Source of the DNA: a virus
Strand: one strand, 5' to 3'
IMG/VR virus record: IMGVR_UViG_3300037042_000622
Coordinates: 1 to 35,602 of that record
DNA length: 35,602 bases
Shown here: in pieces, positions 1,719-35,602 of the stretch
How positions within the stretch are numbered: position 1 is the stretch's first letter
How the letters are laid out: the number at the start of each line of letters is the position of its first letter
Notes under the pieces: generated by a model
Databases searched by the model: none
What the model was told of the DNA's origin: nothing
The model's input: only the letters and a program-made list of their open reading frames with translations
Position numbers and translations under genes: made by a program

Positions 1719-2339
1719 TTATCGTGTTGCTATTGAAATTGAAATTGGTGACCCAGCGTACTCGCCTTGATCATCTGATACAGTTAAAGCAGTTACACCT
1801 CGGTCGTATAATGTAGCCCAAGTTTGTAACCTTGCATCATTCATAATATAAGGCTCTGCTTCACCTAAAGCACCATAAAGCAATAAGTCAGGGCAGTTAG
1901 CCATAAATGCATTTGATGCGGTTGTGCTACTTAAAAATGTTGGTGCAGCATAATATAAAAGATTTACTGTGTAGTTACTGTCTGGTACTGGTGACAATTG
2001 AAACTCTTGCGCTAATACTGTGTATTGATGCGGTAGACCAGAGTCAGTAGTACGAGAGTTACGAAATAATGCGCTAGGTGACTGGTATTCTAATGTTGTT
2101 ACTGGATTTGTTGCTAGGTGGATGTCACGCATTTGCAAAAAGTCTGATGGTAACTCAATTGTTGAATCACCTGCCGTTGCAGTTGTTGTCACTACCTTGA
2201 GCATTTGACGAATACGGAGTTCTCTGCGTAAACGTGTTTCAGCAAGCCTGATAAAGTCAGGAATCATTGCCGTTAAATCACTACGAGCTAGGTAGCTGGC
2301 AATCGTAGTCTGTAAATCAGAGTAATTTGTCAATGCCAT
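1719..2339 (-). CDS. Head-tail adaptor protein
   Basis: 206 residues. The N-terminus (ALTNYSDLQTTIASYLARSDL, then PDFIRLAETRLRRELR) is the helical signature of the adaptor family that docks under the portal in SU10-like and P22 gp4-like podoviruses. A beta segment follows (TTATAGDSTIELPSDFLQMR), then a C-terminal helix in PDLLLYGALGEAEPYI. Length and position, two genes after the coat protein, fit the family. Its start touches the stop of the 105-residue gene upstream (shared base 2339), so translation is probably coupled. The role is to build the first ring of the neck after DNA packaging. Confidence 0.75.
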   Translation of the reverse strand: MALTNYSDLQTTIASYLARSDLTAMIPDFIRLAETRLRRELRIRQMLKVVTTTATAGDSTIELPSDFLQMRDIHLATNPVTTLEYQSPSALFRNSRTTDSGLPHQYTVLAQEFQLSPVPDSNYTVNLLYYAAPTFLSSTTASNAFMANCPDLLLYGALGEAEPYIMNDARLQTWATLYDRGVTALTVSDDQGEYAGSPISISIATR

Positions 2340-4903: not shown

Positions 4904-5295
4904 ATGAACCTTCCAGCACCGCTAGATGCTGATTGTGCTGCGCCTTGTCCACCAAGTAAACCGGCACTAGCTTGTGAGTCACCTTGCATACCTTGTGCTA
5001 CCTGATATAACTCTGGGAATAATGCAGCAATATCAATGTAATTGTGTTGCATAGTTGGCTTGCTTGCTGGGCTAACATAGTTAGGTAAATAAGTACGATC
5101 GCTATTAGCTTTTTTACTAGGAGCTTGGTTAAACATGCCCATGCCAATACCTATTTGATTTTGTCTATTTTCTTCTACTACAGGTGCATCTTGATTAATG
5201 TAGTATTGTCCAGTTTCAGAGTCAAAAAATACATTTCCTCCATTAGCCTGTACACCACTTTGAGTGCCTTGATTGCTTTGTGCTGACATTCCCAT
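4900..5295 (-). CDS. Gln/Gly-rich protein after the portal gene
   Basis: 131 residues with low-complexity ends (QSNQGTQSGVQANGG at the start, SAGLLGGQGAAQSASSGAGRF at the end). In between is a short acidic-aromatic motif (VFFDSETGQYYINQDAPV) and MQHNYIDIAALFPELYQ. Not recognised. It sits between portal and scaffold genes with 3-4-base spacing, so a minor virion or assembly role is likely. Confidence 0.55.
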   Translation of the reverse strand: MGMSAQSNQGTQSGVQANGGNVFFDSETGQYYINQDAPVVEENRQNQIGIGMGMFNQAPSKKANSDRTYLPNYVSPASKPTMQHNYIDIAALFPELYQVAQGMQGDSQASAGLLGGQGAAQSASSGAGRFM

Positions 5296-5298
5296 AAT

Positions 5299-7464
5299 TT
5301 AGTCCTCTATACCATATATAGTAGTTGAATCAAAATTATCTACTACATCTTGTGACTCTGCCTTTATACCACCTTTTATCATTTCATTCAAGCTAGTAAT
5401 GGCTGACATAATAGCGTTAAGCTGCTCTGTCTGTAGTTTTCCATCGGTTGCCTGTGACTTCATCTCTAGTTCCATCTGCTTAAGTTGAAGTTCGGCTTCC
5501 TTGATACGGTAGTCACCTTCCATTTTCATTTGCTGTTGTTGCATCTCTAGCTCTTTACGAGCGTTATCTACTTGCATCTGCTCACGGTCTAGTTGCAACT
5601 TAGCTTGGTTAGTTTGTGCGGTCAGTTGAGATTTCTGTTCTTCTACCTTGGCATACAATTGCGCTGCCTCAGACGTTGGATCAGCAGGTGGTTGACTTGC
5701 TTGCTGCAAGATTTGTTGCTCAACCTCTGGTGTAATCTCATTAATAAATGATGTAGTGTCTTTAAAGCCAGCCATCTCAATCATGCGACCAAGAGTGCTG
5801 CGGTATTGCGTTACAGTTACCAATGGGTTGTTAGCACCGTACTTACCGATAATCTCTTCCTGTTTAGCCATAATCATTTGCAACATAGCAATCTGTTCTT
5901 GGCGATTACCGTTACCCAAGCCTACGTTGATTGATACATCGTATAGGTTAGACCATTCACGAGGGTCATAAGATACCCATTTGCCACGCATACGGATTGT
6001 CTTAGCTTGGTTTTGGTATTTGCATAGTAAATGCAAGATGCCACGGAATAATGATTTAACACCTGTTTCAGCAAAGATACGAGCCATTAGCTCTAGCTTA
6101 CCTGCTGACTGTTGCATCATGGCTGCTACGGCTGTTGCTGTAGTGTTCTGAAGCACGTTAGCATCAAGACCTTGCTGTAGGTCACTAACACCAGTACGTT
6201 TAGCCTGTACACCATCCAAGTATTCCATCATTGGGAATGACTGACCGGCTGTGTTCTGTACGTTCAGTTGGTTAACAGCTTGAGCGTTCTTAACACGGAT
6301 AACACCACCGGCAGTAGACGTTAGTAAGTCATCTAGGTTTACTTGACCCTCTACGGCAGTTACTCGTGCGTTATTGGTTAGGTACAAGTTGTCTAGCATT
6401 TGACGCAATATAGTAGACTTGGTTAGTTGCAAGTCCATTGTGCGGTCTGCTAGTGACTGACCAAAGAATTTGTGTGGGATTGGAATTGGGCATACAGAGT
6501 GGAATGGCACGTAGTCACACTCTTCGTTAGATAAGATTGTTTCACCACCAAGGATAACCCTGCGTAGTTCTAGCAAGCCATTATCGTTTGTATCAACCTT
6601 GATATAGCACTCAAATATCTCTACCTCTTCCATTGATAGGTCGCTGGACTGTGTATAGTCTGGCAACTCATCACGACCAAAACGAGCTAGGCGCTCTGGT
6701 GCGTACTCTAAACGGTCATTTGCTGGGATAGTGTCAACAATAGACTTCTCGTAGCCCATAGCAATCAAGTCACCACGAGCAATCATCCTACGGTGTGCTG
6801 TGAATGGTGAGTCCTCAATGGTCTTAGCACGTTTGCTAATTAGGAACTCTTCAGGCGGTACGTTCTCAATGGCGATACGACTCTCATCGTTTATCTTTTG
6901 GATTGTAATGCTATGCGTATTGTAAGGCATACCATCCATGCCAATAACCATGTCAGTCACTTGCTTGGTGATTTCCCACTCGCCAGTCTGCATAATCATG
7001 GCTAGCTCATCGTCAGTCAGCCCTTTGTATTTTTCCTTAATGGTGTCTTTTTTCTCCTCCCAGTAGGCTTTAACAACCCCAACCTTCTGCAGCAAAGCGT
7101 CTTTGAACCAATTATGCAGGATTAAGAAGCCATCGTTGTCTTTATAGAACACCCAGTTTGCCATGTCACTTGCTTGGTCTGCCAGTTCTTCTTCACCATC
7201 TTTAGTAGGCTCAAAGCGTACAGCGTCTTCGCATGACGTGAATACACGGATTAGTTGAGGCAATGCACCGTCTACGGCTTCAGCAACCTCACCGGTAACA
7301 ACTTGGCTGCGACCTTCTACCTCAGTACCGTACTTGTCACGGAAATAGTAGCTCATCGCATCGGCACGAGCTTGAACCGTATCAGACTCTAAGTAGCCAA
7401 TAGCGTTATTAATCTCGTCAGCAACAAGTGCCTTTAATTCTTCTTGATTCATCATACGACCCAT
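5299..7464 (-). CDS. Portal protein (P22-like)
   Basis: 721 residues, close to the 725 of P22 gp1. Residues 1-110 carry the family start: a helix, then RDKYGTEVEGRSQVVTGEV, then ALPQLIRVFTSCEDAVRFEP. The wing and stem follow, including VPPEEFLISKRAKTIEDSPF and FFGQSLADRTMDLQLTKSTI. The C-terminal 130 residues form a Gln/Glu/Lys-rich coiled coil that would make the internal barrel seen in P22. It forms the dodecameric DNA channel at one capsid vertex. The ATG at 7464 precedes two further ATGs at 7455 and 7452, one of which overlaps the terminase stop; any of these may be the true start. Confidence 0.9.
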   Translation of the reverse strand: MGRMMNQEELKALVADEINNAIGYLESDTVQARADAMSYYFRDKYGTEVEGRSQVVTGEVAEAVDGALPQLIRVFTSCEDAVRFEPTKDGEEELADQASDMANWVFYKDNDGFLILHNWFKDALLQKVGVVKAYWEEKKDTIKEKYKGLTDDELAMIMQTGEWEITKQVTDMVIGMDGMPYNTHSITIQKINDESRIAIENVPPEEFLISKRAKTIEDSPFTAHRRMIARGDLIAMGYEKSIVDTIPANDRLEYAPERLARFGRDELPDYTQSSDLSMEEVEIFECYIKVDTNDNGLLELRRVILGGETILSNEECDYVPFHSVCPIPIPHKFFGQSLADRTMDLQLTKSTILRQMLDNLYLTNNARVTAVEGQVNLDDLLTSTAGGVIRVKNAQAVNQLNVQNTAGQSFPMMEYLDGVQAKRTGVSDLQQGLDANVLQNTTATAVAAMMQQSAGKLELMARIFAETGVKSLFRGILHLLCKYQNQAKTIRMRGKWVSYDPREWSNLYDVSINVGLGNGNRQEQIAMLQMIMAKQEEIIGKYGANNPLVTVTQYRSTLGRMIEMAGFKDTTSFINEITPEVEQQILQQASQPPADPTSEAAQLYAKVEEQKSQLTAQTNQAKLQLDREQMQVDNARKELEMQQQQMKMEGDYRIKEAELQLKQMELEMKSQATDGKLQTEQLNAIMSAITSLNEMIKGGIKAESQDVVDNFDSTTIYGIED

Positions 7465-8720
7465 GCCTTATTTTGTTGTAATGGTTTAGACCATGTTGTA
7501 TCTACTTCTACTAACCCTATTGCTAAGTACCTAAACGAGTCTGCAAAGTGTGATGACCAGTCGTGAACTGGCTTATCGTAAAACACGTTCTGCTTCTCGT
7601 TAAACTCTCGCCTGTAATTGCGTAATGCCACAAGACCGTTCTTAGTCCCTTCTATATCAAACCAGCATCTTGGCAACATACGTCTGACTGCTTGAATGCC
7701 ATCCGCTATAGATAGGCTTGGTGCTACTGTTACGTCTAGTCCTGCTTCCATTAAGACCTCTAGTCTACTACGACCTGTGGTCATCTCTCTAACTCTTACA
7801 TCGTGCGGTAATATCTGCTGACCTTTATCGTAATTGTTGTCACGCAACCAACTCACGTAATAATCTAGTCCGACTCCGTGGTTCTCAGTACAATCTATAA
7901 GCTGTATCTCTTTACCCACAATCTGAGCCACAAAGATGCAGGTGGAATCACTTACACCTAAGTCCCAGCTACATACAATCTTAGCCAATGGGTCTTTAGG
8001 AATCTTAGTTACTCTATTCTCGTTATCTGCCTCGGTTAGTAATTTACCGTAGTAACTACCCTCTATTGGAGAGTCAAATGAGCATTGAAATTCCTGTTGA
8101 AACTTATCCTCACCCATCTCGTTCTTAGCACTAGCCAACTCTTGTGGGTCTAGTATGCCAGTATCACTAGCCTTAAACTCTAAGAACTTCCAGCCTTCAG
8201 TAACCTTCGCTCTATCCTTAAACTCTGAAAAGTGATTTTTCCCCTTCGGAGTGCCTATCATGAGGCAAAAACCCTTGCGGTCTGCAAGAGCCGGTCTTAC
8301 TATACTGTTCCAAATTTTTGGGTCTTGGTCACCTATCTCGTCTAGGACTACACCATCAAAGTATTGTCCCCTTAAACTGTCACCATTCTCACTTCCGTAC
8401 AGGCTGATTCGTCTGCCCATAAAGTCTACTCGTAGCTCTGCGATGTTTGCAGTACCACCAAGTGAGCGAGTATATTCTACTAGGTAATCCCATGCGACCC
8501 TTTTAGCCTGTGAGTAAGTTGGTGCAATATAAGCGTAACGAGGATTCTTCTGTTTGTTCTGTAATGCAGAATGGATAAGCTGCACTATTGCGCTTACTGT
8601 TTTTCCCATCCTACGATGTGCTACAGCTACAACAAAACGATTCTCTCGTACTGCCTTGTGTATCTCTTTCTGTGGCAACCTAGGCTTATAGCCCAAGTCA
8701 ATTGGGTTAGTAGTTGTCAT
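7452..8720 (-). CDS. Terminase large subunit
   Basis: 422 residues. ATPase domain: Walker A variant AHRRMGKT (34-41), Walker B DGVVLDEI (122-129, Asp127-Glu128) and coupling motif IGTPKG (155-160). RNase H-like nuclease domain: acidic residues at SWDLG (Asp253), LPHD (Asp307) and HFADSFRY (Asp394). This motor pumps DNA into the procapsid through the portal and cuts the concatemer. It overlaps the small terminase gene by 14 bases and the portal gene by up to 13, showing tight coupling. Confidence 0.95.
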   Translation of the reverse strand: MTTTNPIDLGYKPRLPQKEIHKAVRENRFVVAVAHRRMGKTVSAIVQLIHSALQNKQKNPRYAYIAPTYSQAKRVAWDYLVEYTRSLGGTANIAELRVDFMGRRISLYGSENGDSLRGQYFDGVVLDEIGDQDPKIWNSIVRPALADRKGFCLMIGTPKGKNHFSEFKDRAKVTEGWKFLEFKASDTGILDPQELASAKNEMGEDKFQQEFQCSFDSPIEGSYYGKLLTEADNENRVTKIPKDPLAKIVCSWDLGVSDSTCIFVAQIVGKEIQLIDCTENHGVGLDYYVSWLRDNNYDKGQQILPHDVRVREMTTGRSRLEVLMEAGLDVTVAPSLSIADGIQAVRRMLPRCWFDIEGTKNGLVALRNYRREFNEKQNVFYDKPVHDWSSHFADSFRYLAIGLVEVDTTWSKPLQQNKAWVV

Positions 8721-9799: not shown

Positions 9800-10174
9800 T
9801 TAATCCTCTAGTTCAAAGTCTTTACGTTCCCATACGCTGCATAGACGTGAGTTATGGCAGATTAGGTCTAGCTTGTGACACCAGCCACGTTGCGCTTGAC
9901 CATCGTATAAGTCGTATTTATTAAGTGGGATTGCCTCCATTGCTTCAAACATCTCTGGAGTATTGTCGTAGTATTCGCAGTTACCGCATCGTTGACGCTT
10001 GACTTCTGCTGGAGTAATTCGGAACATCTTAGCCATCTTTGCCCAGTACTCGGTATTAGGCAAACTTGGGTTCATAGCTCCAAGAGAATAGTTATCAATG
10101 GCATTCTTGGTGTTGTCAGCAATCTCTTTGGCAGAGCCAATAGTAGTCTTTGTGTCTAACAAACCTTTTGCCAT
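9800..10174 (-). CDS. Cys-rich (metal-binding?) first protein of the late operon
   Basis: 124 residues. The C-terminal half has five cysteines: C63-x2-C66, C99, C106 and C112 (RCGNCEYYD, GWCHKLDLICHNSRLCSVW). This spacing could bind Zn or an Fe-S cluster. Phages with this terminase-portal block often carry a related Cys-rich protein upstream; its function is unknown. AGGGA lies about 6 bases before the ATG. It is the first gene after the control region and would be the first product of a leftward transcript from the promoter at 10326-10354. Confidence 0.65.
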   Translation of the reverse strand: MAKGLLDTKTTIGSAKEIADNTKNAIDNYSLGAMNPSLPNTEYWAKMAKMFRITPAEVKRQRCGNCEYYDNTPEMFEAMEAIPLNKYDLYDGQAQRGWCHKLDLICHNSRLCSVWERKDFELED

Positions 10175-10354: not shown

Positions 10355-10408
10355 TATATCACATTTAATGCTTTTCTCTATGGTGTCATGTCTAAAAAAG
10401 AGCATAAT

Positions 10409-10437
10409 TTGTACATATACGCAATGACGTGTATAGA
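10409..10437 (+). promoter_or_regulatory. Putative promoter for pqqA
   Basis: -35 TTGTAC, a 17-base spacer and -10 TATAGA on the plus strand. The predicted start is near 10444, about 17 bases before the ribosome site of pqqA. The match is moderate (3 and 4 of 6), so this is supported mainly by position. Confidence 0.4.
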
Positions 10438-10472
10438 AAACGAGATAATTTAAACATATCAGGAGATTTATC

Positions 10473-10544
10473 ATGTGGACATCACCAGCAGCTACAGAAA
10501 TGCGTTTTGGCTTTGAAGTTACAATGTACGTAATGAACAAGTAA
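10473..10544 (+). CDS. pqqA: PqqA-like PQQ precursor peptide
   Basis: A 23-residue peptide, MWTSPAATEMRFGFEV then TMYVMNK. Length and layout match short PqqA peptides such as that of Klebsiella: N-terminal Met-Trp, Pro5, an EVTxY core and a Lys/Arg end. Glu15 and Tyr19 are present at the family positions. In bacteria these two side chains are joined by the radical-SAM enzyme PqqE with the chaperone PqqD, then processed to PQQ, the cofactor of methanol and other dehydrogenases. A strong AGGAG (10461-10465) lies 7 bases before the ATG. The gene is alone on the plus strand between leftward modules. No pqqB-F gene is in the window, so any function relies on host enzymes. It is probably an auxiliary metabolic gene taken from a host. 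Confidence 0.88.
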   Translation: MWTSPAATEMRFGFEVTMYVMNK

Positions 10545-10559
10545 CATATTTGTTATTAT

Positions 10560-10802
10560 TTACTCCCCAGTCTGGCTATCTGCTAGGCTGGGTTCTTTAG
10601 AGTACTCAAACTCTATCAGCATCTCAATAAAGTGAATTGCCTTCTTTAAATCCTCCAGACCGTTCTTATTCCTATGCCGACAAAGGTACTTGATAGCAGT
10701 AGCCTCTAAGTATGGAATGTTATTGTAATAGCAAAACTCTGCTGGCTGTATTGCAAAGCCTTTGTAGTGATTGCCACCGTGTTGAATGTCTAGTACGCTC
10801 AT
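10560..10802 (-). CDS. DUF3310 family protein
   Basis: 80 residues from the ATG at 10802, which shares bases with the upstream stop (TAATG). The motif GGNHYKGFAIQPAEF followed by AIKYLCRHRNKNGLEDLKKA defines DUF3310, a small helical phage family sometimes linked to nucleotide metabolism, with no proven function. It is the last gene of the leftward early module and ends 15 bases from the convergent pqqA gene. Confidence 0.8.
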   Translation of the reverse strand: MSVLDIQHGGNHYKGFAIQPAEFCYYNNIPYLEATAIKYLCRHRNKNGLEDLKKAIHFIEMLIEFEYSKEPSLADSQTGE

Positions 10803-11404
10803 TACCAATCTACTCCTGACATTGTTGCACCACTTGTGTAGTTCTTAGGTGATTTCATATTAGCCCTGTCTATTGATCGTTGAGTCATGTAAAGACTGCT
10901 TAATTTTCTGTCATCAAAATTAATTACCCTAGCACCTTCTATCGTTGGTGTGTTTTCACTAACCTTGGTTTTGTATTTCTTAGGCGATACATACTCTAGT
11001 GCATCCTCGTAACTCATTAGCTTGGTAGTGACAAAACTATAATACCTACGTGTACCGGTATCGCTAACAACAATGCTTTTCATAAAGCCTCTAGCCATTA
11101 AGCTCTTAATAGTGTTAGACGCAGTATTTTTATCGGCATCTAATTGCTGCTTCATGTCTGTTAGCGTTTTAGGCAATACGCAAAATTCTAGGTAGACGTT
11201 ATATCTAGCAACCATCTCTTTTGCCATCCTATCTAGCTTTGCTTCTTGTTTTGCATAGGATTCTGCTATTCTTTTCTCTCTAAATGCTTGCTCTGCTGCC
11301 TTGGCTTCTTCTTGTGTCTGATAATTACCAATGTGGATAATCTGACATTCTGAATCCCTAGCTGTTACTACCCAAGCATCAACTTTCTTACGAAAGACAA
11401 TCAT
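10802..11404 (-). CDS. Putative winged-helix DNA-binding protein
   Basis: 200 residues. Residues 1-55 look like a small beta-alpha domain (MIVFRKKVDAWVV, then GNYQTQEEAKAAEQAF) resembling the AP2-like or integrase-arm fold in shape only. Residues 75-130 read as a winged helix: CVLPKTLTDMKQQLDADKN, TASNTIKSLMARGFM, a wing TGTRRYYSF. A basic tail follows (SPKNYTSGA). It may be a phage regulator. The start overlaps the YbcO gene stop by 4 bases. Confidence 0.55.
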   Translation of the reverse strand: MIVFRKKVDAWVVTARDSECQIIHIGNYQTQEEAKAAEQAFREKRIAESYAKQEAKLDRMAKEMVARYNVYLEFCVLPKTLTDMKQQLDADKNTASNTIKSLMARGFMKSIVVSDTGTRRYYSFVTTKLMSYEDALEYVSPKKYKTKVSENTPTIEGARVINFDDRKLSSLYMTQRSIDRANMKSPKNYTSGATMSGVDW

Positions 11405-21927: not shown

Positions 21928-22419
21928 TTATCCTCTAAATAATGCTGCTTCGTCTTTACGTCTGTTATCTAAACCTTTTAAGACCTTGCCACCAGCCTTG
22001 TTATACTTGAGTAGACTTTCAATAGCCGTGATTTTATCCCCACGCAAAAGCGCCTGACGGACGGTTGACCTCTGAAAGCGCCCCATACCAATATTAAAAC
22101 ACAGGCTAAGTACAGCATCGTATTCATTCTGTGAAAGTCGTATAGGTAGATAACGGGCAAGCCCTCGTTCAAATCGTGCGACATCCTTAGCCAATAATGC
22201 GTCAACTTCTTCCTCACTCCATCTGCGATTGTCTTCAGGCTTTAATGCCCATGCTTTACGTCTAGCCATGCCTTCTATGTTAGATGGTATTTTAGCCTGT
22301 TCTGGGTACATTACGCTACCAACACCAATAGTCCAGAGTTTAGCCGGACATTGGTATGGTTTGTATCTCACACCTTCATGGTGCTTCAACATTTTAAATA
22401 GTTCTTTACTTGCCTTCAC
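21928..22419 (-). CDS. Endolysin, GH24 lysozyme
   Basis: 163 residues if started at GTG 22419 (KASKELFKMLKHHEGVRYKP), the usual family start; a TTG at 22446 would add 9 residues. The catalytic plan is Glu15, Cys24 and Thr30 in HHEGVRYKPYQCPAKLWT. Cys stands where T4 lysozyme has Asp20, as in other CPA-type phage lysozymes. The C-terminus has LSQNEYDAVLSLCFNIGMG and GLDNRRKDEAALF. It degrades peptidoglycan. No signal peptide is seen, so release depends on the holin encoded just upstream, which it overlaps by 14 bases. Confidence 0.92.
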   Translation of the reverse strand: MKASKELFKMLKHHEGVRYKPYQCPAKLWTIGVGSVMYPEQAKIPSNIEGMARRKAWALKPEDNRRWSEEEVDALLAKDVARFERGLARYLPIRLSQNEYDAVLSLCFNIGMGRFQRSTVRQALLRGDKITAIESLLKYNKAGGKVLKGLDNRRKDEAALFRG

Positions 22420-22903
22420 GGTGTTTTTCCCATTGACGTGAGCCAAAGTAGAAGCCGATTATACTGGAAACTATAGCCATTTCGTCATCAGAGAATACAA
22501 GGTTCATGGCAGTAGTAAACTCTACACCAGTATAGATTGCCCAAGCAAGACCAGCAATATCAACAAGCACTAGTAAGCCAACAAAGGTAAATGCAATGTA
22601 TGGTCGCACCTTGCCGTTAAGGTCAACAACTGATTGTGATGCCTTGTCCATGATTTTCATGTCATGTGCATATAGCGCCTCACGCTCTTGTGCGTAAGTC
22701 TGCATCTCAACTTCATCTAGCTTAATAGCCTCAATCTTTTCTTGTGATGCAAAGCCAGCAGCAGCCATAGCAGCTTCACGTTCTGTCTGCAAACGAGCCA
22801 TAGCCATCTCATGCTTTTGGTCACCTTTCTGCTGAAAGAAACCTAATAGACTTGGTAAGGCTGAAGAGCCAATACCTAATAGACCTGATATGATTGATAA
22901 CAT
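22406..22903 (-). CDS. Holin-like membrane protein
   Basis: 165 residues. A short hydrophobic N-terminus (MLSIISGLLGIGSSALPSLL) is followed by a long charged helix (about 25-95) and two membrane spans: RPYIAFTFVGLLVLVDIAGLAWAI split by a short loop, and AIVSSIIGFYFGSRQW near the end. The RPY...FW/YFGSR plan is common in phage proteins beside lysozymes and is taken as a holin. AGGAA lies 7 bases before the ATG. Directly upstream of the endolysin. Confidence 0.7.
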   Translation of the reverse strand: MLSIISGLLGIGSSALPSLLGFFQQKGDQKHEMAMARLQTEREAAMAAAGFASQEKIEAIKLDEVEMQTYAQEREALYAHDMKIMDKASQSVVDLNGKVRPYIAFTFVGLLVLVDIAGLAWAIYTGVEFTTAMNLVFSDDEMAIVSSIIGFYFGSRQWEKHREGK

Positions 22904-22905
22904 AA

Positions 22906-23376
22906 TTAATTTCCTAGTGGGTTAGATGTAGCTCGTTTGAGCGATTTAAGTTGTGATTCTATGCCTTCTCTTGTAGCTTTCATCTCTTCACGCACACCCA
23001 TTAAAGATGCTGCCGTTTCACGCACGTTACCGTTAGTGATCGCCTTGGCTTCGTTAGCTGTACCAATGGCATTTGATACCTTCTCTTGCATAGACACCAA
23101 TTGATTTGATGTCGTTACCATAGAGTCTTTAACTGTGTTGACTGACGTTTGTTGTGCAGCCAGTTGAACCTTTAATGCGTTAACCTCTGCCTTTAGTTCT
23201 GCATCGTCATAAGGCTTGTTAGCCTCAATCATTTCAGTCGCAGCTATAACACGGTTGTAGGTCGTTATTCCTACGTAGGCTGTCCCACCTATCGCTGGCA
23301 AGATTATTGAAAGCGTCAGAAATATTGCCTTCACTGATAAGTTGGAGTAAGACTCCTTGATTTCCTCTAAGCTCAT
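22906..23376 (-). CDS. Membrane-anchored coiled-coil protein (spanin-like?)
   Basis: 156 residues. One membrane span (VKAIFLTLSIILPAIGGTAY, about 15-37) is followed by a long coiled coil to the end. This topology recalls inner-membrane spanins, though size and motifs do not prove it. AGGAG lies 7 bases before the ATG. The first 143 bases lie inside the end of the secreted-protein gene in another frame. A lysis or tail-base role is plausible; the next gene is the holin. Confidence 0.55.
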   Translation of the reverse strand: MSLEEIKESYSNLSVKAIFLTLSIILPAIGGTAYVGITTYNRVIAATEMIEANKPYDDAELKAEVNALKVQLAAQQTSVNTVKDSMVTTSNQLVSMQEKVSNAIGTANEAKAITNGNVRETAASLMGVREEMKATREGIESQLKSLKRATSNPLGN

Positions 23377-24649
23377 ACGGTAACTCCTGTTGATATTCCA
23401 TTGCCTCGTTCAACTGAACTTGTTGAATCTGCATTGGTTTGTTTAAAATTTCTAGGCTCATCACTACCCCAAACCCTGGAACTAACGTCTTCCCTGCTGG
23501 CACTTGTGCTGGCGAGGTATTCTGCGTACTCCCTTGCGAGGTAGTCGTTGGCGCACTCACGGCTGGTTGTGATGGTGGTGTACTTGTGCTTCCTGACGAG
23601 GCTGTTGGCGGTGGTGCTGCTGCCGGTGGCGGAGGCGCTTCTGCTGGAGGTGGCGCTTCTGGCGGTGGTGGTGCAGCTTCCGCAGGTACTTCCGGTGGAG
23701 GCTCTGGTGGTGGCTCTGGCGCAGGTGCAATAGGCATTGCTTCCGGCATCGCAGTCGCACTTAAAGGGCTGGCTGGATTTACCGGACTGCTCATGTTTGT
23801 TGGATTCGTTGCGCTCTTTACACAAGCGTCTTGTGATTGCATCCAATCGTTCCATTGCGGTTCGCTGTATGGTGTAGAGCAAGTTGAAACTCTGTTTTCT
23901 GTTATTGAGCCAATGTAACCATCTTGACATGCTAAAGTCCTAGTTTGTGTTGATGAAGAACAGGTTGCCGGATTTGGTGTGCATGAATTTGACACCGTTG
24001 TCCATATACCTTCTACCGGTTGACCGTATGGGTCAGAACACGTATTTGTTTTTGCTTCCTGTATTTGCCCAGAAAAGTTTTGTGGGCAAGCTAATGTTTT
24101 GTTTTCAACGGTTGTTTGGCACGTTGGTGGCGCTGCTTGGCACGACCTTGAGATTTCAAACCATCCGGAGTCAACAGGGCTGCCGTATGGGTCTGGGCAG
24201 TTTTGTTCTCTTTTAAATGTGACCGTGCCGATTTGGTTATCCCCACAGGTTTGCCTTTCTTCTGTTTCTGCACTATAGGTGCAAGATGGAGGATTTGGGC
24301 TACAGTTGTTTGAAGTAGTAATCCAATCTGTAAAACTTTGGCTTTGACATTGATAAGTTCTAGTTTGGTTGACTGCACCAGAATGATTAGGCTGGCAAGC
24401 AAGAGTTTGATTTTCAACACGGTCTGTACAATCTGGAATGACAGGCGCTGACATAAAATCACAAGCTGGGTCATTTGGGCGGTGAGGACACCAAGCAATC
24501 CTAAGAGCTTCTTGGTTATCAATGCCGTTGCATTGCAAATTAGTGACGTAGCCTTCTGGAGAAGGTTTGTAAGAACAGCTCCAAGCATATACATCATTGC
24601 TCCTTAGAATTGTTAGGAATAGGAGTAATAAGAACGAACTCTTTACCAT
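23234..24649 (-). CDS. Secreted protein with four Cys-rich repeats and a proline tract
   Basis: 471 residues from ATG 24649. The signal peptide is KSSFLLLLFLTILRSNDVYA, cut near residue 22. Residues 74-276 form four repeats of about 50 residues, each with the plan C...(V/T)(E/Q)x(Q/K)TLAC...G...C...W...C, resembling thrombospondin type-1-like modules. Residues 305-350 are Pro/Ala/Glu-rich (PEPPPEPPPE, APPPPEAPPP), a likely spacer. The C-terminal 90 residues include MQIQQVQLNEAMEYQQEL and end in PCYSCD. It is probably exported to the periplasm or cell surface; an adhesin, a superinfection factor or a lysis helper are options. Its last 143 bases overlap the next gene. Confidence 0.65.
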   Translation of the reverse strand: MVKSSFLLLLFLTILRSNDVYAWSCSYKPSPEGYVTNLQCNGIDNQEALRIAWCPHRPNDPACDFMSAPVIPDCTDRVENQTLACQPNHSGAVNQTRTYQCQSQSFTDWITTSNNCSPNPPSCTYSAETEERQTCGDNQIGTVTFKREQNCPDPYGSPVDSGWFEISRSCQAAPPTCQTTVENKTLACPQNFSGQIQEAKTNTCSDPYGQPVEGIWTTVSNSCTPNPATCSSSTQTRTLACQDGYIGSITENRVSTCSTPYSEPQWNDWMQSQDACVKSATNPTNMSSPVNPASPLSATAMPEAMPIAPAPEPPPEPPPEVPAEAAPPPPEAPPPAEAPPPPAAAPPPTASSGSTSTPPSQPAVSAPTTTSQGSTQNTSPAQVPAGKTLVPGFGVVMSLEILNKPMQIQQVQLNEAMEYQQELPYELRGNQGVLLQLISEGNISDAFNNLASDRWDSLRRNNDLQPCYSCD

Positions 24650-25061
24650 AAATATCTGCAAACCATTCTGGGTGTAAGTCATACCAAGCCTTTCTTGCTG
24701 CGTCACCAATAGCACCACCTATAGGACAAGGTGAGCCAGACATCTCCATAGCTATCCAATTCTCATGATTAGCTGCACAGGCTAACGATACTGCTGCTAC
24801 CTTTAGACCGCTATCACTTAGGAACTTAGCCCATCGTAATTTAACGCAATTGCTATCTGTTACCATCGTGCCACCGGCTACAGAAAATATCCCACCGTTG
24901 ACAGCACCGCTAATACCAATACTGCAAACATCTTGACTGAAAGCTGACATTGAAGGAGCGACAGCAGAGGACACAGGTTGACCTTTATAATTAATTGTCG
25001 TTTCATCGGCATTAGCTGTAGTTACAAATAATAAAATAAGAAAAAGTAATATATGTTTCAT
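24594..25061 (-). CDS. Secreted conserved phage protein
   Basis: 155 residues with a signal peptide (MKHILLFLILLFVTTANADE, cut near 19). The mature part has INYKGQPVSSAVAPSMSAFS, VCSIGISGAVNGGIFSVAGG, SLACAANHENWIAMEMSGSPC, a pattern seen in proteins near lysis or tail genes of several phages of Proteobacteria. Cysteines may form disulfides. Function unknown. The start shares bases with the previous stop (TAATG). Its end overlaps the next signal-peptide region by 56 bases. Confidence 0.6.
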   Translation of the reverse strand: MKHILLFLILLFVTTANADETTINYKGQPVSSAVAPSMSAFSQDVCSIGISGAVNGGIFSVAGGTMVTDSNCVKLRWAKFLSDSGLKVAAVSLACAANHENWIAMEMSGSPCPIGGAIGDAARKAWYDLHPEWFADIYGKEFVLITPIPNNSKEQ

Positions 25062-34522: not shown

Positions 34523-35602
34523 TTAGCGTAATTCTGCCCATTGGTTTAAAGACATAGTGCCAGTCGGTGCAAAAGCATATGTTGCACCAGAAGGAATAAT
34601 AATACTACTACCTGAGTACACGTTTAAACCCCATCCAGCAATACGACCATAAACTGTTCCGTTTATGCTTACGGTAACATTGAACAGACCATTTGATGCA
34701 CCACCACGAATTGTTAGGAAAACCATTATTGAACGACCAGTTGAATTTGTATAGGTGGTTGATAATGCCCTACTAGCGGTAACATCTGTCCATGACTGTC
34801 CAACACCGATTGCGTTTGATGCTGTTGTTGCTGTTGCTGCGTTGCCTGAACAAGCAGACGATGTTCCTGAAGTTGTAGCGTAATTTACACTAAAGTTTGA
34901 TGGGTTATACACATACATATTTGAACCATCACTACCACCCCATAACCAAGGTGGCTGACCACTTTGCCCTGACCAGTTAAAATTTAAATCTACACCACCA
35001 ACACGATAAGGATATGCACGACCTGCTGTTGATGCGTAAGTAGCCGTTGCTGCATTACCTGTGCATGATGCTGAAGAACCTGAAGTTAAATCACTAACCC
35101 TAGCAGAATCAACCCTTAATCCATAAGTGCTTGAACCATTCCAACCCATTAGACTAGGATATGATGCTGACCAAGCAACAGCCGCATTTGTGTTATTTAC
35201 AGCACTTCCTGTTGGCGATGTTGATGCTGAAGCGTCAAATATAATATGATTATTGCCGTAGTTTTTCCAGCCTAACATATTTGCAACAGCAGATGTTCTT
35301 AATGAAGCCCAGTTTGATTGGTCACCACTTAATGTTGTTGCCGTTGCCGCATTGCCTGAACAAGCCGCAGATGTGCCTGAACTTGTAATAAACCCAGCAC
35401 CGTTGGTTAGCTGGTTTGTGTTAGTTACATTGGTTGCACCAGCCGCTATGCCATCAAGTTTGCTTGCATAAGTGCTAGTCATATACCCATTGACAGATGC
35501 CGTTGCAGCAGCCATGCTTATTGCAGGAGTTGCCCCACCACTTGATACTACTGGAGCTGTACCTGTTACAGATGTAACTGTACCAACACTTGCTGTGCCA
35601 CC
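34523..35602 (-). CDS. Tail fibre, allele B (5' part cut by the window edge)
   Basis: The frame is open to the edge; 359 residues are visible and the start is missing. The N-terminal visible part (GGTASVGTVTSVTG) matches allele A. The middle (about 95-260) is unrelated to allele A and has its own GNAATAT-type boundaries. The C-terminus ends SGATYAFAPTGTMSLNQWAEL. Gly replaces the stop of allele A at the position equal to 78-80. With the first part of allele A the full fibre would be about 500 residues. The chaperone gene follows 11 bases after the stop, so this copy is the intact-end version. Confidence 0.8.
   Translation of the reverse strand, partial: GGTASVGTVTSVTGTAPVVSSGGATPAISMAAATASVNGYMTSTYASKLDGIAAGATNVTNTNQLTNGAGFITSSGTSAACSGNAATATTLSGDQSNWASLRTSAVANMLGWKNYGNNHIIFDASASTSPTGSAVNNTNAAVAWSASYPSLMGWNGSSTYGLRVDSARVSDLTSGSSASCTGNAATATYASTAGRAYPYRVGGVDLNFNWSGQSGQPPWLWGGSDGSNMYVYNPSNFSVNYATTSGTSSACSGNAATATTASNAIGVGQSWTDVTASRALSTTYTNSTGRSIMVFLTIRGGASNGLFNVTVSINGTVYGRIAGWGLNVYSGSSIIIPSGATYAFAPTGTMSLNQWAELR
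34833..34864 (-). repeat. Fibre module-boundary repeat, copy 3
   Basis: Equivalent of 112-143 in allele B with a few differences, all in the same frame (CSGNAATAT). Confidence 0.7.
35343..35374 (-). repeat. Fibre module-boundary repeat, copy 4
   Basis: Differs from 586-617 by one base. It marks the N-terminal edge of the allele B variable module. Confidence 0.75.

Follow-up and report, generated by a model that had tools for sequence, protein, structure and literature searches.

A pqqA gene with a dedicated upstream element recurs in methylophages and may restock the precursor of host PQQ

The window analyzed here is a virus record of 35.6 kb in which a plus-strand open reading frame (ORF) of only 23 codons appears to encode PqqA, the peptide precursor of the bacterial cofactor PQQ. 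PQQ is needed for methanol oxidation, and one PqqA is consumed for each PQQ made. The locus raises two questions: whether this ORF is a true pqqA gene and, if it is, what a phage would gain from carrying it. The gene and its immediate surroundings are as follows.

9800..10174, minus strand: upstream neighbor, antisense to pqqA; function unknown, without a match in Pfam or PHROG
10416..10435, plus strand: short inverted repeat (UAUACGC / GUGUAUA) within the presumed 5' leader; weak evidence
10461..10465, plus strand: Shine-Dalgarno (SD) sequence AGGAG, 7 nt to the pqqA ATG, read from the sequence
10473..10544, plus strand: pqqA, 23 codons then TAA, encoding the 23-aa peptide MWTSPAATEMRFGFEVTMYVMNK
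10560..10808, minus strand: downstream neighbor, DUF3310/nucleotide-kinase-like (PF11753, phrog_236), antisense to pqqA
10566..10592, plus strand: terminator-like hairpin (11-bp stem with 7 G-C, then TTCTTT)

Judged from its sequence, pqqA is a genuine gene and a true member of the PqqA family. The ORF and the AGGAG 7 nt before its ATG were confirmed as an earlier sequence-only reading had described them, and the PqqA-type peptide with Glu15 and Tyr19 that it had recognized passed both the Pfam and the TIGRFAM profile for PqqA (PF08042, 37.9 bits, E value of 1.7e-9, cut-off of 21.1; TIGR02107, an NCBIfam "equivalog," 34.4 bits, E value of 1.4e-8, cut-off of 20). The length of 23 aa falls within the range of about 22 to 29 aa for PqqA, and the translation contains Glu15 and Tyr19 in the E-x3-Y spacing (i.e., the residues that become PQQ). 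Clustering with pqqBCDE, a usual though not strictly defining trait of PqqA, was absent from the phage copies examined; hosts, too, keep orphan pqqA genes. A PHROG family search with the window peptide gave no match, consistent with pqqA having been overlooked by phage annotation.

The surrounding signals were compared with those of other viral copies. An SD-like motif was present no more than 18 nt before the start in 150 of 156 viral pqqA genes. Two terminator-like sites were found, against 0.4 in shuffles, and the region 3' of pqqA in relatives has another sequence, yet by eye again presents an inverted repeat and then a T-rich tail. Repeats comparable to that at 10416..10435, with a different sequence, were likewise seen by eye at this position in relatives. 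A structured RNA in the 5' leader was rejected, the window fold being no better than shuffles (z, -0.59). The gene had been placed between the late and early modules; this stands insofar as it sits between packaging and nuclease/recombination genes, and is refined in that the flanking genes are on the minus strand, pqqA being an isolated plus-strand unit antisense to both.

The phage itself was placed by its terminase.

7452..8720, minus strand: large terminase, which groups the phage with Venkman and ctXG6705

This terminase is 62 to 63% identical to those of the OM43 phage Venkman and the spring-water phage ctXG6705, the next-nearest being those of HTVC010P-group pelagiphages (about 45% identity). 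The capsid, portal, and tail proteins of the window likewise match Venkman. From these relatives, we infer that the host is a methylotrophic member of the Methylophilaceae. The distance from pqqA to the terminase start is 1.75 kb, and terminase, recombination, and structural phage genes surround pqqA, so that a metabolic gene of host type lies within a phage genome.

Two other parts of the window are recorded here. Minus-strand ORFs at 78-1313 and 34523-35515 share a near-identical stretch (MAAATASVNGYMT.TYASKLDGIAAGATNVTNTNQLTNGAGFIT), which suggests repeated tail-fiber segments near the opening point of the record. Close to a lysozyme gene (21928-22446), a long ORF rich in proline and cysteine, whose start looks signal-like (23234-24718, minus strand), overlaps a 185-codon ORF in another frame (23373-23930, minus strand); these are possible lysis-related proteins.

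The gene is not confined to this record. A tblastn search of 50,697 phage records with the window peptide matched P19250A, MEP301, Venkman, MEP401, MEP402, four Melnitz strains, and ctXG6705, so that the nearest phage matches were methylophage isolates and one spring-water phage genome. None of the Pelagibacter phages in these records matched, though pelagiphages are the next-nearest terminase group. Matches to "Acinetobacter phage MD-2021a" were set aside as a bacterial pqqABCDE region in a phage-labeled record (CAKLQF020000010.1); the phage label looks wrong because the contig holds a complete pqqABCDE cluster and other chromosomal genes.

All of the OM43 isolates named in the 2023 MEP401 paper (i.e., Venkman, MEP301, Melnitz, and MEP401/402) carry pqqA, and so does P19250A, a freshwater LD28 phage. 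The records of P19250A, MEP301, Venkman, and MEP401/402 have no annotation at the pqqA site. A "hypothetical protein" annotated opposite to the pqqA strand in Melnitz-1 (4961-5056, minus strand) and in ctXG6705 (2067-2195, minus strand) is probably a spurious ORF masking the real pqqA. As the sequence-only reading had anticipated for a gene of fewer than 30 codons, pqqA is easily missed: most methylophage isolate records lack it as an annotated gene. The searched text of the OM43 isolate papers contains no mention of a PQQ gene.

More than 200 IMG/VR contigs, belonging to lineages whose terminases are unrelated, contain pqqA. No recognizable similarity links the terminases of the window/Venkman/ctXG6705 group, MEP301, P19250A, and MEP402 to one another, and Melnitz is classified in the Kyanoviridae; pqqA therefore occurs in at least five lineages. 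A scan of viral contigs with a DNA pattern encoding GFEVTMY returned at least 120 stretches. All 120 that were listed translate to PqqA-like peptides, and 93 of the 120 listed contigs matched reference methylophage proteins. Other PqqA sequence types were represented by few copies, whose contigs also encode phage portal, terminase, or recombination proteins, and a Methylobacterium-type PqqA pattern gave just one viral stretch.

The genomic surroundings of pqqA differ between phage lineages. A tiny gene acquired repeatedly and at different genomic positions could be a passenger, i.e., a copy of a host gene that is frequent owing to the many host pqqA copies and brings the phage no benefit. Purifying selection on pqqA speaks against this. 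When terminase relatives were picked without regard to pqqA, and a locus was counted if it covered 3.5 kb or more upstream of the terminase, 19 of 26 loci contained pqqA, 1.2 to 3.5 kb from the terminase and on the opposite strand in every case. One further relative has the gene elsewhere in the genome, and two more bear the variant MWTSPAATEHRIGFEVTAYIMTR. About three in four covered records of the terminase lineage thus have pqqA, and the expectation of the same peptide in the same place is fulfilled to that extent; about a quarter have no detectable pqqA. Across the terminase-defined set, the mean pN/pS of pqqA was 0.16, indicating purifying selection and satisfying the criterion for a gene maintained by selection. 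Two close terminase relatives (about 90%; L293 and L294, records of 34.9 kb and 27 kb) have no detectable pqqA in the record and would lend themselves to a natural comparison of host range or lifestyle.

The passenger explanation also has to account for the sequence upstream of the gene, where two further features were identified.

10364..10382, plus strand: pqqA-dedicated upstream element TTTAATGCTTTTCTCTATG (consensus TTMATGRTTTTMY..ATG; 20.5 bits)
10403..10408, plus strand: -10-like hexamer CATAAT, exactly 27 nt after TAATGCTTTT; promoter function inferred

An upstream alignment gave a consensus of TTMATGRTTTTMY..ATG-N20-YATAAT that is common to many viral pqqA copies. The spacing of 27 was the commonest (42 of 83 viral upstream regions scored with element and -10). 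With up to one mismatch allowed, the 10-base core was found in 59 of 134 viral pqqA upstream regions, 121 of 5,000 random viral-contig windows, and 1 of 51 host pqqA upstream regions. The window contains a single training-level match, the one at pqqA, and the pattern occurs once in the window, against 0.01 expected; in P19250A and MEP301, the sole training-level match is also at pqqA. We then scanned 2.9 million viral contigs with the element and -10 only, leaving the coding sequence unused. This yielded 111 stretches, 107 of which have pqqA 28 to 158 nt downstream; of the other four, one breaks off within the start of a pqqA, another is too short for a decision, and the last two resemble chance matches. 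Glu15 and Tyr19 were present in all 107 peptides. The regular expression by which PqqA was recognized demanded Glu and Tyr or Phe; two nontruncated stretches failed it, and neither showed pqqA.

Other roles for the element were considered and rejected. It is not a general phage promoter, as 89 of 98 sites scoring 16 bits or more in 1.68 Mb lie upstream of a recognized pqqA, and the remaining nine are mostly cut-off copies or a pqqA variant missed by the regular expression. Nor is it a host regulatory site: the bipartite pattern occurred in none of 31 host-genus genomes, and 100 host-family genomes contained five scattered matches. The two-mismatch host sites that we inspected were in rpmJ, tpiA, and other places (names by reading the translation), none upstream of pqqA, and no recurrent element was found upstream of pqqA in the host genomes scanned. 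A canonical sigma-70 promoter was not found before pqqA on the plus strand. No strong element match was detected in Venkman or ctXG6705; some phage pqqA genes therefore do without it.

Its position is our ground for inferring that the element is a promoter. A regulator common to the element-bearing phages was sought among ORFs of at least 60 aa, and none was found; this result, and the lack of the element at host pqqA genes, may point to an unknown host factor as its reader. Whether Methylophilaceae phages with unrelated terminases have converged on supplying the one consumable of PQQ, driven by a promoter element that is confined to phages (TTMATGRTTTTMYTGATG-N20-TATAAT) and recognized by such a factor, is a question on which we regard the balance as even. 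An element common to phages with unrelated terminases and absent from host pqqA genes, together with the purifying selection, makes the passenger explanation very unlikely. The scan without coding sequence, in leading to pqqA, also bears on the view that so short an ORF is a matter of chance or artifact; together with the profile scores over the cut-offs, the recurrence in phages, and the pN/pS of 0.16, it refutes that view, to which we give practically no credence.

The same 107 peptides bear on what the product does. The alternative raised in the sequence-only reading was a decoy, in which the phage peptide would occupy host PqqD/PqqE and block PQQ synthesis or divert the cell from methanol oxidation. 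The window peptide has the length, the motif, and the Glu15/Tyr19 of host Methylophilaceae PqqA (e.g., MWTTPAATEMRFGFEVTMYVMNK) and differs by one residue (Ser4); by inference, so short a peptide, this near the host substrate, would compete for PqqD/PqqE. A decoy could, however, lose the reacting residues freely, and an intact PqqA should become PQQ. Both residues are kept in all 107 element-found peptides and in all 145 viral copies of 23 aa, the latter set being partly selected on the motif and hence not independent for this purpose. Since every element-found peptide retains the two residues that become PQQ, the decoy is weakened and we hold it to be very unlikely. The conservation in related phages on which the PqqA assignment had been staked is met by these copies and by the pN/pS set.

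Host PqqD/PqqE could also mature the peptide for another end, such as a modified signaling or toxic peptide. Related radical-SAM systems make other peptides, and the N-terminal residues of phage PqqA differ between phages. The positions around the core remain host-like, however, and no extra peptide-processing gene was present among the window neighbors scanned; we think this explanation very improbable.

We consider it probable, though not certain, that a true pqqA is carried as a self-contained mini-unit (i.e., promoter-like element, Shine-Dalgarno sequence, 23 codons, and terminator-like hairpin) by a phage that infects methylotrophic Methylophilaceae, and that it restocks the substrate of host PqqB-E and keeps PQQ and methanol dehydrogenase supplied; expression, processing, and the supply effect are inferred. 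For a transcript, the support is indirect and comes from the conserved element upstream, the SD site, and the hairpin downstream. During infection, PqqA would be made from the phage gene and handed by host PqqD to PqqE, which would link Glu15 to Tyr19, and other host enzymes would then complete PQQ. The enzymes work repeatedly, whereas every PQQ costs one PqqA; it is therefore the peptide that has to be made continually. Phage PqqA would thereby keep PQQ, and hence the energy from methanol dehydrogenase, flowing once the host halts its own production.

The gene content of phages and hosts agrees with this supply reading. None of the 120 listed pqqA-bearing viral contigs contained pqqB, pqqC, pqqD, or pqqE; pqqB-E genes were present in 73 of 119 cellular 8-kb loci. 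Among host-family genomes, 149 of 150 have pqqA, mostly in 2 to 12 copies, and PqqE exceeded the cut-off in 57 of 60, nearly always as a single copy. Given a single PqqE, many pqqA copies, and the consumption of PqqA, a phage with pqqA alone would supply the consumable and borrow the enzymes. The same copy-number pattern has been published (PMC4109929). In small-genome members of the host genus, two pqqA genes lie about 200 bp apart (G112:C3:34472/34672; G083:C1:434248/434447), and the pair in G083 is about 100 kb from pqqE.

Supply, as first proposed from the sequence alone, is thus supported as the best fit, with no PQQ increase shown. PqqA added to a Gluconobacter cell-free extract is described as giving PQQ at 70 to 80% (Wang et al., cited in PMC9851590). 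In Acetobacter, overexpression of pqqAB raised PQQ by only 29%, compared with eightfold for the whole operon, so PqqA is not always limiting (PMC7936290). Also counting against the supply reading are the quarter of covered terminase relatives without detectable pqqA and the several pqqA copies that hosts already have, because of which limitation during infection is an assumption. That PqqA supply limits infection, or PQQ supply phage yield, is inferred, without transcript, peptide, or PQQ data.

The possibility of an earlier report of pqqA in a methylotroph phage had been left open, and one exists: PqqA was reported in a Lake Baikal T4-like virus assigned to Methylophilaceae, one of a pair of populations also encoding methanol dehydrogenase (PMC7678222). 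In that virus (VP_266), PqqA is likewise phage encoded in a Methylophilaceae virus, and the same supply idea was proposed (PMC7678222). VP_266 is a large T4-like virus with methanol dehydrogenase, whereas the window represents a phage of ~36 kb in which pqqA is the sole PQQ-linked gene seen; the window-type pqqA is, moreover, left out of isolate annotations and preceded by a control element shared between phages. P19250A, Venkman, MEP301, MEP401/402, and Melnitz all have the window-type peptide, most of their records without an annotated gene. Compared with host Methylophilaceae pqqA, the window gene is phage carried, lacks pqqB-E, and has a phage-type element (core in 1 of 51 host upstream regions). 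No other report of viral pqqA was found in the literature searched, which did not cover subscription papers (e.g., the P19250A paper). The role of pqqA as an auxiliary metabolic gene in one virus was therefore already known; the breadth of lineages, the miss in isolate annotations, and the dedicated upstream element appear to be new.

Auxiliary genes for energy metabolism are known from other phages, such as psbA in cyanophages and pmoC in phages of methanotrophs. These likewise keep host energy metabolism going; they encode enzyme subunits, whereas pqqA encodes a consumable precursor peptide. The case of pqqA indicates that a metabolic gene of fewer than 30 codons can escape annotation even in well-studied phages, and its specific element gives an entry point for studying the use of a single control signal by unrelated phages. 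Effects on methanol oxidation and burst size can be tested directly in existing phage-host pairs, namely, Venkman or Melnitz on OM43 strain H5P1 and MEP301 on HTCC2181. If the supply reading is true, phages of abundant aquatic methylotrophs would commonly target PQQ supply.
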